Source: Zasmidium citrigriseum (taxonomy: Eukaryota > Ascomycota > Dothideomycetes > Mycosphaerellales > Mycosphaerellaceae). Taken from it: 64,000 bases of DNA. Below the pieces are notes generated by a model. That model was not told the DNA's origin, did not search any database, and was given only the letters and a program-made list of their open reading frames with translations. How positions within the stretch are numbered: position 1 is the stretch's first letter; every line of letters starts with the position of its first letter. A program made the position numbers and the translations under genes. The stretch lies in contig NHNW01000048.1 of NCBI GenBank assembly GCA_002786025.1, forward strand, positions 62,001-126,000, in the 5' to 3' direction. Below are positions 12,028 to 25,220 of the stretch, one piece after another.

Positions 12028-12662
12028 ATGTTGGCTTCAACCGCCGGTCTATTCTCTCTTCTCCTCGCCGGAGCCCTTGCTGGTCCTCTTGACAGCCGAG
12101 CGACATGCACGAACCAGCAGAAGATCGATGCCTGCAAGGCTGAAATCCAAACCATTCGATCCCACTCCGCCGCCGACGCTGCAAAAATCCCTCTAGATCC
12201 TCTTGCCAGCCGGACTTTCTACATCACGTATGCTGAACGATTATGGTGTTTCAATGGAAGGTTTGCTGACAGACTCGCAGTCTCGCTGAGGCGAACTTCA
12301 CGATGCTGCCACCCGTCAACGTTGGCTTCACCGCCGAGACTGTTCGAGCTGAGCTGGTTCTCCTGGCCACGATTCTGGATGCTGGCGTGCCTCAAGGCTC
12401 AGATTCGTACATCGTCAATCCCAATGGCACTGTGACGGCCGACTTCATCCAGGTAAACAAATCCGTATCATCTCTCTTGAAAGGGGGCAGCAAGCTGACC
12501 TGTGGACAGACTGATCGACTGGTCCTTCCTGCCGTCAAGGTCCGTGAGATCCACGAGTTCAACAGCGCATGCCAGATTAAAACGATCACTGGAATTTGGT
12601 CATACCACTTTGAAATGAAGCGCTTCAACAGTCGTTATATGGCTGCTCTGAACACTTCATAA
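12028..12662 (+). CDS. Small secreted protein, function unknown
   Basis: Three-exon gene of about 175 codons. The N-terminus MLASTAGLFSLLLAGALAGP is a clear signal peptide. A CTNQQKIDAC segment follows. Intron 1 (donor GTATGC at about 12229, acceptor CTCGCAG at 12279) restores the frame into LAEANFTMLPPVNVGF. Intron 2 (GTAAAC at 12452 to GGACAG at 12510) is a 59-60 bp stretch whose removal joins TADFIQ to TDRLVLPAVKV; it stays in frame if retained, so this joint is less sure. N-glycosylation sequons NFT and NGT are present. I do not recognise the family. Length and signal peptide would suit an apoplastic or cell-wall protein, but effector function is only a guess. Confidence 0.65.
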
Positions 12663-12694: not shown

Positions 12695-12852
12695 GTCCAT
12701 TTGGCTCAGTGGTAGAGCGCTGATTGTTGCAGGAGCTCGACGCTGCTAAGAAAGATGCCAAAGATGTGCGCGAATTGGCAGACCAGCGTGAAAAGGATAT
12801 CGTGAAGCTCAAGACAAATCAGTGGTCCCTAGTTCGAATCTAGGAATGGACA
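12695..12852 (+). tRNA. tRNA gene with an 86-nt enlarged anticodon loop (Cys-like; identity ambiguous)
   Basis: Every arm is canonical. Acceptor GTCCATT pairs with AATGGAC (12695-12701 / 12845-12851), discriminator A at 12852. T8, G9; D-arm GCTC-AGTGGTA-GAGC (12704-12718). Anticodon stem CTGAT (12720-12724) pairs with ATCAG (12818-12822). Variable loop is TGGTC; T-arm CCTAG-TTCGAAT-CTAGG (12828-12844). A seven-T stretch follows at 12856. Between the anticodon-stem halves are 93 nt instead of 7. Of these, 12734-12813 are 77/80 identical to 25066-25145. The 5' part of the loop is TGTTGCAGG. Anticodons GCA, GTT and TTG can each be read but none places a T exactly at position 33 with a 5-bp stem. 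Variable and T arms most resemble fungal tRNA-Cys. It is either an intron-containing gene with an exotic intron or a disrupted tRNA gene. Confidence 0.8.
12734..12813 (+). repeat. 80-bp partial copy of coiled-coil gene exon inside the tRNA
   Basis: Aligns without gaps to 25066-25145 with three substitutions (A/G, T/C, C/A) and the same orientation. The source segment is internal to the last exon of the coiled-coil gene. The copy has no splice signals at its ends that match the source, so it moved as DNA, or as a fragment, rather than as a whole exon. Confidence 0.9.
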
Positions 12853-12855
12853 ATC

Positions 12856-12862
12856 TTTTTTT
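12856..12862 (+). terminator. RNA polymerase III terminator (T7)
   Basis: Run of seven T on the coding strand, 4 nt after the discriminator base of the tRNA. This is the normal Pol III stop and argues that the tRNA gene was, or still is, a real transcription unit. Confidence 0.8.
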
Positions 12863-16833: not shown

Positions 16834-16896
16834 CCCTGACTCCCCTCACACCCTGACTCCCCCCACACCCTGACTCCCCCCACACCCTGACTCCCG
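16834..16896. repeat. 17-bp tandem repeat, about 3.7 copies
   Basis: Unit CCCTGACTCCCCCCACA starts at 16834, 16851, 16868 and 16885. The first copy has one change and the last is partial. It lies inside the decayed coding trace. Confidence 0.9.
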
Positions 16897-17200
16897 TGAT
16901 ATTTCCTCTGGTATAAGCTCCGTTGGCTTGCCACTCTCGTTCTGCGCCCAGCGGCTCAATCTTCCACACGACGAATCCTTGCGAGAACCATCTGGTCCCA
17001 TCACACGCCCTCTGCAATGGGCCATCCTGTCCTCCCGCACCTGTGTACACAATTCTCGGACCATCCAAAACAGGTCACGACGTCTCGTTCCGAATGAACA
17101 CCCTCTCGCCCTTTCGTTCCTCCCAACACCCTCATCCAACAGTCGATACGGATTCCCACCATGAGCAGTGCTCCCATAATGCCTTGAGTACCAAGCGTTT

Positions 17201-17305
17201 CCTTGCCTTGCCTTGCCTTGCCTTGCCTTGCCTTGCCTTGCCTTGCCTTGCCTTGCCTTGCCTTGCCTTGCCTTGCCTTGCCTTGCCTTGCCTTGCCTTG
17301 CCTTG
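17201..17305. repeat. (CCTTG)21 microsatellite
   Basis: Twenty-one perfect CCTTG units, followed by a pyrimidine-rich stretch. Frames through it give artificial ALPCL-type or GKARQ-type repeat proteins that should not be annotated. Confidence 0.97.
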
Positions 17306-18039
17306 CCCTTTTTTCTTTTTTGTCTGTTTGCATCTCAAGTCGTTGCATCTTTTGTTTCCTTCTTCATCTTCCCCTTTTCGGCCGTGGCCATGTTTCCTGA
17401 CTTCACTGTCACCCTCTCCCATCCACAACACACCATATCGCTCATCGCAGATATCTCCAAACCCCAAGACATTCACCTAGCACCACCTGGCTCTTTTTGC
17501 TCCACCATATCTCCACCCCCCTCCGGTTCATCTCGTCCAAGCAAACGTCATTCATGATCTCTGGGTCCCCATTTCCAAAGCGATGGCGCCAACTACGCTG
17601 TCGGATGGTTCGGATCCGAAAGCCGTGGCCGTCATGGAATGATTCCCAAGCATGCGCATACGTAGAGACACTGAAAGTATGAGCGCCACCGGATCAAACC
17701 TCATCTGCTTTCCACTCACCTGTGTCTGCATGCACGGCAGCAGGGAATGCAGGATGGCAACCCCTTCCACTAGCGGTCGAGACCGGACGTCCATAGTTCC
17801 AGAGTACCCGCTTTCCAGGCCGAGCCAGAGTGTCGCCTCCGGCAGTCCGTACTGCATGACATATCACAAGTGAAGGCCCGACACGACTTCAATAATCCTT
17901 TGGCTGGTCTGGTCTCGGCTGATTGTGGATGCAAAGTAACCCAGACTCGCTATGCAGTTTGCCATCATTCACCCACTTGGCTTTAAAGTTGAATTCGTTC
18001 CCCACGCTGTTCCGTTCAGTCTCGACTGGCTGAATTGAC

Positions 18040-23795: not shown

Positions 23796-25220
23796 ATGGC
23801 TCCCTCTGTAGGTCTCCATTGTTGTCCGCATTAGAAGTGGTCTTGATTGCTGATTGATCCGTAGTACTCTCGTCACAACCCCAACGTACGTCAATCGTTG
23901 ACAGCGGGGCTTTGACATTGATGCTGATGTGCGCTTCGAAAGTGCTCTCGAAACTGCGACGGCCGTCGTAAGTACATCTCACATCACTTCCTCGCAACCA
24001 CAGCCTTCATCCATCATCCCATCCATTCGTGGATTCTCTCTGCAACGACCGCCTGCGACGATCATCTGCGACGATCATCTGCGACGATTATCTGCGACGA
24101 CCACATGCGACGACCACCTGCAACAACCACTTGCAACAGTGGCAGTCCTCTGCACCGCATCGAGCAGATCCAGCTCATGCTGTGGAGTTCGAATCTTCCC
24201 ACGACTGCTGTCGGCCTCTTGTATCTGCCAGTGCAGCCTTCTGGCCTCGCATGTCGTCTTTTCGATCGAATATCTGGATGCCATGAGACGAAAAGTCACT
24301 GTGTCATGGTCTCGACATCGACCATACACCGAAACCGCCTGGACCGCCAATCCCGATTTAGACCTCCGTCGTCTCCGATGACTCTTCTGTCCTTGCTCCC
24401 GTCGTTTCATCGGCCTCACGTCATCAAGAGCTTCGTCGCCTCCGGTCATCTGCCGAATTTGGAACAATATCCCCGTCATCAACCAGGAGCATCAGCATCC
24501 CAGCAACCGCATCGCTTGCACTCGTTGGACAGTCGTCTTGGGATCAAGCTGCTAACTATATCATAGACCATGCCTTGCCGCCGGGTGCCTCCCGTGGGGG
24601 CAGAGTAAGTCATACTACCATGCTCTCTGGTCTTTGAATGTTCGCTGACAATCTCTGAAGCAGAACAACAACAACAAGTAGGTTCCGAAATCGACGTGCA
24701 TGCGCAATGCAAACAACGCTCATTCATCCGGTATAGCAACCGTCGCCGCGCCGCCCCGGCCTCTTCGGCCACGTAAGTACAGATACATGAGACATATGTT
24801 GACACAAGCTCACCATTCAGTAGTACCCAGCGCGAGCTGGAGACCTTCCGTGGGCTTTGTATGTCAGATTGAGGATCCGGGGTAGAGTTCTGGCTGACAG
24901 TTGTCTATTCGAAAGACTTCGATGTCGACGACGAGCGTAAGACCATGTTCCTTGACGGCTGTTTGACACGAATTGTGTCCGAAAGGCATGCTGATTGAAT
25001 CATAGGCAAGGAGTTGAGGAAGCAGCTCGATGAGAAGTCTTCGGACTTAAAAGATGTCAACAAGAAGCTCGACGCTGCTAAGAAGGATGCCAAAGATGCG
25101 CGCGAATTGGCAGACAAGCGTGAAAAGGATATCGTGAAGCTCAAGGAGAAGGTTGCCGAGCTCAAGAAGAAGTGCGGCGAGAAGGAGGATGAGGACACGG
25201 AGATGGATCAGATTGAATGA
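23796..25220 (+). CDS. Small coiled-coil protein assembled from micro-exons
   Basis: Best model has nine exons: 23796-23807, 23865-23885, 23943-23967, 24567-24604, 24664-24677, 24737-24772, 24821-24858, 24901-24936 and 25006-25220. All donors are GTRNGT or GTAAGA type, most introns are 42-69 nt with a CTGAY or CTAAC branch motif, and all phases agree, giving 144 residues. The product begins MAPSYSRHNPN, has an Asn run and RRRAAPASSATS, then STQRELETFRGLF and KDFDVDDERKEL. It ends in a lysine/glutamate-rich coiled coil (about residues 75-135) with acidic tail EDEDTEMDQIE. The last two exons are the surest; exons 1-4, and especially the 599-nt intron 3, are less so. No known function. Part of the last exon is duplicated in the tRNA at 12.7 kb. 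The gene abuts a thiolase fragment 12 bp downstream. Confidence 0.55.
24042..24132. repeat. 13-bp minisatellite, seven copies
   Basis: Unit GCGACGATCATCT with variants, seven units from 24042. Unit length is not a multiple of three, which fits its place in the long third intron of the coiled-coil gene. Confidence 0.85.

Follow-up and report, generated by a model that had tools for sequence, protein, structure and literature searches.

Introns of canonical nuclear tRNA genes lie between nucleotides 37 and 38, and their removal depends on the tRNA splicing endonuclease and a ligase; the mature anticodon loop has 7 nt, with U33 and a purine at position 37. Repair of double-strand breaks, for its part, can leave templated insertions. 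The mode of tRNA intron gain in eukaryotes is treated as unexplained and as an open question in the pertinent sections of a review, whose authors can hardly picture DNA transposition as a route and propose that anticodon cleavage is followed by polymerase extension of the 5′ half and by reverse transcription (PMC4090602). The same sections describe recent gains in yeasts, in Gly-UCC of K. lactis and Ala-UGC of L. thermotolerans, and name Cyanidioschyzon merolae among the exceptions (PMC4090602). Among the titles and abstract openings listed in searches of openly accessible published papers, often the top of a longer list, none describes either a tRNA insert copied from an exon or spliceosomal introns in nuclear tRNA genes.

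Here we describe a tRNA gene of Zasmidium citrigriseum that carries a copy of a probable exon in its anticodon loop. It lies in a stretch of 64 kb, positions 62001-126000 of contig C92, which is called the window below.

Results

An intact tRNA scaffold with a 93-nt anticodon loop

The gene and its surroundings contain the following features.

12695..12852, + strand: tRNA-like gene from the acceptor stem to A73, 158 nt (RF00005 score; ARAGORN intron mode)
12704..12718, + strand: D-arm, GCTC-AGTGGTA-GAGC (A-box region)
12720..12724, + strand: 5′ side of the anticodon stem, CTGAT
12725..12817, + strand: anticodon loop, 93 nt
12818..12822, + strand: 3′ side of the anticodon stem, ATCAG
12828..12844, + strand: T-arm, CCTAG-TTCGAAT-CTAGG (B-box region; RF00005 hit)
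12856..12862, + strand: T7 run, a Pol III-type terminator
12658..12662, + strand: TATA-like CATAA, 37 bp upstream of the gene (consensus match only)
12636 (start), + strand: second TATA-like word, TATAT, 59 bp upstream (consensus match only)

An earlier note on this DNA had claimed canonical arms, a 93-nt anticodon loop and a T7 Pol III stop, and all of these hold. The 21 stem pairs are all intact: 7/7 in the acceptor stem (GTCCATT/AATGGAC), 4/4 in the D-stem (GCTC/GAGC, with a 7-nt D-loop), 5/5 in the anticodon stem under the standard pairing CTGAT/ATCAG and 5/5 in the T-stem (CCTAG/CTAGG, T-loop TTCGAAT). The variable loop is TGGTC (5 nt) and the discriminator is A73. The covariance check suggested by the note accepted the scaffold: RF00005 scores it at 49.9 bits, where the gathering score is 29 (scan of 351 nt with permissive filters, E 6e-10). 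The gene was reported neither by the default-filter Rfam scan nor by default ARAGORN on the 64-kb window; ARAGORN detects it in a 501-nt piece once introns up to 200 nt are allowed. Plain ARAGORN missed the interrupted tRNAs that we tested, and tRNA counts in genomes with interrupted tRNA genes may be too low.

Since the scaffold, the A- and B-box regions and the T7 stop are intact, transcription of the gene by Pol III is plausible. The nearer TATA-like word overlaps the TAA stop (12660-12662) of an open frame. The same 15-base D-arm is found in this genome's tRNA-Cys and in both tRNA-Ala(TGC) genes.

The loop holds a copy of a probable exon

Most of the loop matches a second place in the window, which lies about 12 kb downstream on the same 334-kb contig.

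12731..12813, + strand: insert core, 83 bp, copy of 25063-25145 (79/83, same strand)
25063..25145, + strand: donor stretch of the insert
about 25006..25220, + strand: putative last exon of the coiled-coil (donor) gene, drawn by eye from GT...AG signals

The alignment is ungapped, with 79 of 83 bases identical and both copies on the + strand (E 1.4e-30, DNA search of the 44.4-Mb assembly of 148 contigs). An identity of 77/80 to 25066-25145, reported before, is right and is a subset of this match. Among the matches listed in the assembly search no third place carries the sequence, and outside the 83 bp the flanks have no 12-mer in common (about 330-390 bases compared on each side). The exon copy within the anticodon loop is real.

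The donor falls inside the last exon of a multi-exon model of the coiled-coil gene, drawn by eye from GT...AG splice signals, and support for this gene is weak. At E 0.001 none of 53 candidates, all of them proteins of similar length, matched the donor protein (133 residues), and the two Pfam matches, DUF4200 and FapA, are both below the cut-offs. The donor reading frame is open throughout the copy, and the four differences fall on donor codon positions 1, 3, 2 and 1. The donor stretch is likely coding. What is observed is the shared sequence; we infer a transfer from the exon into the tRNA gene. Elsewhere the window contains a reading frame with a tandem GKARQ-like repeat (16846-17334, - strand) and a purine permease 89% identical (90% covered) to a protein of Zasmidium cellare, family Mycosphaerellaceae. 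This one protein is slender evidence for a Mycosphaerellaceae-like fungus.

With four changes in 83 bases, one or two hits would be expected in the 42 stem bases if these were unconstrained; zero are seen, which is compatible with chance (P 0.13-0.36), so the intact arms are no evidence of selection. The argument that arms and terminator mark the event as 'recent or still transcribed' is accordingly weak.

Anticodon-loop introns elsewhere in the genome

For comparison, 63 of 1309 tRNA candidates were scored, which gave 42 rows; the window gene is absent from them. Of the 30 rows examined, two mitochondrial-looking contigs account for 16 and the other contigs for 14. The two contigs (C41 and C51) carry identical tRNA genes, so the assembly may have split the mitochondrial genome or contain it twice. 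Of the 14 other genes, 8 have an anticodon-loop intron of 8-40 nt, and tRNA-Cys, outside that list, has one of 61 nt. One tRNA-Ala(AGC) has a 31-nt intron (C83:812934-813036) and another has none (C108:10722-10793), while their bodies are identical at 70 of 72 positions, which indicates that introns are gained or lost between close paralogues. Two tRNA-Thr(AGT) genes (L009 and L014) have introns of 17 and 40 nt, by gain, loss or exchange between paralogues. An AT-rich tRNA hit spanning 163 nt on an 11-kb contig (L029, C49:1634-1796) perhaps reflects RIP mutation.

We searched the genome for sources of these introns with the 10 of 17 cut pieces that have at least 20 nt. Two 24-nt pieces returned no row, and for none of the eight testable pieces was a remote source found, each matching its own place only in the DNA search. 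Seven of the eight are anticodon-loop pieces; the eighth comes from L032, first taken for Glu-TTC and actually a tRNA-Val(CAC) with a GT-AG insert. Among the intron pieces tested, the window insert alone has a visible source. The seven include the pieces of two tRNA-like loci, L052 (C142:46498, +) and L060 (C75:223396, +), whose anticodon loops, flanked by intact or nearly intact arms, gave pieces of 66 and 83 nt when cut. None of the cuts listed gives U33 in either, and they possibly form one class with the window gene.

Putative GT-AG introns in other tRNA genes

Nine other tRNA or tRNA-like genes contain 16 inserts of the form GT...CTRAY...AG, 52-59 nt long, in the acceptor, D, variable or T regions, that is, outside the anticodon loop.

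C94:727175-727353: Ala-TGC (L050/L079), inserts at 4/5 and 54/55
C77:216560-216720: Ala-TGC (L048), insert at 54/55
C88:131921-132090: Thr-CGT (L061/L078), inserts at 4/5 and 62/63
C83:230620-230830: Arg-TCT (L077), inserts at 4/5 and 62/63
C105:884456-884630: Trp-CCA (L046/L080), inserts at 4/5 and 53/54
C83:683880-684050: Asp-GTC (L069), inserts in the D-loop and at 53/54
C116:380506-380635: Val-CAC (L032), insert at about 46/47
C61:851388-851540: Arg-CCT (L051/L075), GT-AG insert(s), model incomplete
C72:126567, - strand: tRNA-like (L059), two GT-AG inserts (4/5 and end of the D-arm); the rest gave no cloverleaf

The first seven genes of the list are the clearest. The inserts were found by reading the neighbourhoods of pattern hits by hand, not blind, and some of the tRNA genes become complete only once such inserts are taken out. 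All 16 begin with GTNNG (7 of them with GTAAG) and end in AG, with CTRAY at -14 to -17. The calling rule itself asked for GT, for AG and, within 25 bases, for a branch site, so these features are partly there by construction, while the tight ranges of length and branch distance and the restoration of the stems were not imposed. Once spliced, with the anticodon-loop introns also out, 7 of 9 models are read by ARAGORN as tRNAs with the stated anticodon. Without splicing, plain mode reads 0 of the 9 and intron mode 1, Val; this control is weak, since plain ARAGORN also misses tRNA-Cys, whose intron is ordinary. In the four complete 4/5 cases we counted how often the 4-mer before a GTNNG, 50-60 bases upstream of an HAG site in the window, pairs fully with nt 69-72; this happens at 0.14%, 0.67%, 1.1% and 0.30% of the 5691 HAG sites. 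Pattern searches gave no enrichment, with 7 places against 19 in the control for CTAAC...AG...T-loop (2 of 7 tRNA genes by eye) and 10 against 10 for CTAAC...AG...A-box (5 of 10). As these counts do not exceed the control, the case for the inserts rests on single hand-drawn gene models. Introner-like spread was rejected, since 14 of the 16 inserts (L059's two left out) were queried and all 13 rows returned lie at their own places.

The extra inserts look spliceosomal, and we treat them as putative introns. The inserts at 53/54 and 54/55 split the B-box region, which makes transcription of their genes questionable. If confirmed at the RNA level, GT-AG inserts with branch sites in tRNA genes would change assumptions about the range of transcripts processed by the spliceosome, and would account for tRNA genes overlooked by standard scanners.

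Splicing options for the 93-nt loop

The two tRNA halves of the window gene were rejoined in silico at successive cuts, under the standard or a shifted pairing of the anticodon stem. Under the standard pairing none of the cuts listed restores U33, and the cut at 37/38 leaves the loop TGTTGCA, with G33 and C37. By eye, two features of a normal pre-tRNA intron can be drawn: a candidate A-I pair of T32 with the A at intron position -3 (T32/C under the shifted pairing), which leaves three nucleotides bulged out, and a TTG/CAA pairing towards the 3′ end. Five other tRNA genes of this genome, whose intron is canonical, keep U33 (Cys TTGCAG/, Ala TTTGCA/, Arg CTTCTA/, Trp TTCCAG/ and Asp TTGTCA/).

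Under the shifted pairing GCTGA/TCAGT six cuts with 5/5 pairs give U33 and a 70-nt product, at the cost of nt 26 and with a 4-nt variable loop. The loops are TTACAAA, TTGCAAA (Cys), TTGTAAA (Tyr) and TTGTTAA or TTGTTGA (Asn), so that the anticodon is ACA, GCA, GTA or GTT depending on the cut. Only TTGTTGA (U33, G37) comes from a cut at 37/38, and it is without the A-I pair by eye; the others require a cut that precedes the anticodon, falls within it or directly follows it. For GCA the inserted piece would be as follows.

12727..12814, + strand: 88-nt insertion between nt 34 and 35, TTGC + 83-bp copy + A (shifted pairing; inferred)

Its removal leaves a complete loop, though these are one among several possible pairs of boundaries. 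ARAGORN in intron mode picks a neighbouring 88-nt GT...AG solution, Cys(aca), and reads the product after removal of 88 nt as tRNA-Cys. Such acceptance is no test, since all 16 rejoined variants were accepted as some tRNA.

The tRNA body gives no isotype. The nearest of 17 bodies, Thr-CGT, is identical at only 48/67 positions, followed by L052 (47/66) and Tyr (47/68), and Cys (42/67) is no closer. Pattern and DNA searches of this genome found no close paralogue or insert-free copy of the gene. A pattern search for nuclear tRNA-Asn, run to settle the Asn reading, found 4 places against 9 control matches, of which three are Ile-like and one Lys-like and none is Asn.

Discussion

The earlier note had left it open whether a tRNA intron was born here or an insertion killed a tRNA gene. 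The copying of an exon stretch stands; under the standard pairing none of the cuts listed yields an ordinary 37/38 intron, and disruption is the likelier of the two. We consider it reasonably probable that the tRNA gene, interrupted by the 83-bp exon copy, is disrupted, its transcript being at most unspliced or non-decoding, since under standard pairing a cut at 37/38 yields no loop fit for normal decoding. In favour of disruption are the lack of U33 in the standard-pairing cuts while five other tRNA genes keep it, the absence of a close paralogue of the tRNA body from the search matches and of CTRAY from the loop, and the 49.9-bit scaffold together with the 79/83 match of insert and donor. 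Against it are the 21/21 stem pairs and intact terminator, though compatible with chance, the features of a pre-tRNA intron that can be drawn (T32-A(-3), the 3-nt bulge and the TTG/CAA helix), the regular loop that shifted pairing gives after removal of 88 nt, even if the Cys call says little, and the length of up to 61 nt reached by other tRNA introns of the genome. Under this disruption a nuclear tRNA gene would have gained, in its anticodon loop, a copy of the probable exon 12 kb downstream, oriented sense to both genes. The copy would most likely have arrived when a break in that tRNA gene was closed by templated repair, during which a few bases may have been added at the junctions.

It is doubtful, though the most probable of the alternatives, that the exon copy is a young functional tRNA intron, removed by the endonuclease at a shifted site to give a working 70-nt product (Cys GCA, or Tyr or Asn). 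CTGATTG and CAAATCAG rejoin cleanly into the loop TTGCAAA with U33 and A37, ARAGORN in intron mode calls Cys(aca), and the genome has several further tRNA introns. The price is that nt 26 drops out and the variable loop is left with 4 nt, four anticodons are all reachable by shifting the cut, and for Cys the cut falls inside the anticodon, while the body is not above Thr-CGT or Tyr in its identity to Cys. Furthermore, U73 is an identity element of tRNA-Cys, and the window gene has A73 where this genome's tRNA-Cys has T73, which speaks against the Cys isotype. The length of 88 nt lies within the 6-133 nt range that the review quotes for eukaryotic tRNA introns (PMC4090602).

We regard as improbable a tRNA-derived Pol III gene for a non-coding RNA, in which the scaffold would be kept for transcription and stability and the loop left free for other sequence. 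L052 and L060 resemble the window gene in their arms, long anticodon loops, downstream T-runs and lack of U33 in the listed cuts, but these are three cases only. In the best fold of the pre-tRNA the acceptor helix and the T helix persist beside a lengthened anticodon helix, yet this fold lacks the native D-stem (forcing the full cloverleaf costs 0.5 kcal/mol), and its energy is unremarkable, with z of -1.61 and 12 of 200 shuffles equally stable.

Rather unlikely, too, is a tRNA intron caught at birth, its source still readable and the insert now removed from the pre-tRNA, with tRNA genes of this fungus being general intron acceptors; the latter is suggested by the spliceosomal introns that they appear to have taken up as well. 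A tRNA cleaved in its anticodon might have been joined to a sense mRNA fragment and the joined molecule reinserted into genomic DNA; alternatively, a break might have been filled by a repair copy of the gene. The insert runs in the same sense as the donor mRNA. Chance alone would give this orientation in one case of two, and it fits both a ligated mRNA fragment and a copy made from DNA. It does not fit the review's route, in which a polymerase would lengthen the 5′ half of the tRNA along an mRNA template and so produce antisense.

An assembly artefact or a chimeric contig is very unlikely: the data come from a single assembly, but the insert differs from its donor at 4 of 83 bases, and a single 334-kb contig carries both, 12 kb from each other. 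An 88-nt spliceosomal-type intron (GTTGCA...CTCAAG), whose removal would leave the anticodon ACA, is scarcely credible. In its favour, the ARAGORN boundaries happen to be GT...AG and other tRNA genes here have GT-AG inserts; against it, the loop lacks CTRAY (at -14 to -17 in those inserts), 88 nt contrasts with 52-59 nt, GTTGCA makes a poor 5′ site and Cys does not normally have ACA as its anticodon.

A tRNA scaffold with an identifiable copied fragment of a probable exon is a concrete case for the question of intron gain. With canonical eukaryotic tRNA introns the window gene shares an insertion in the anticodon loop, intact arms and a length in the quoted range; it differs in that a 37/38 cut under standard pairing yields no normal loop and in that the source of the insert looks like a coding exon. 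Like templated insertions, the insert is a short near-exact copy of a remote sequence with few extra bases, and its flanks are not shared with the donor; the target, in contrast, is a tRNA anticodon loop, and the copy keeps the donor frame open and in sense, which can be chance. The ectopic introns of C. merolae and of nucleomorphs resemble the extra inserts of this fungus in being multiple, away from 37/38 and within one genome, but those of C. merolae are tied to BHB motifs and those of the Guillardia nucleomorph have 3-24 nt in the sections concerned, while the inserts here look spliceosomal (PMC4090602, PMC3978253). In the recent yeast gains, as here, sequence in the anticodon loop was gained in single lineages; the pertinent part of the review names no source for the intron sequence, whereas that of the window insert is identified (PMC4090602).
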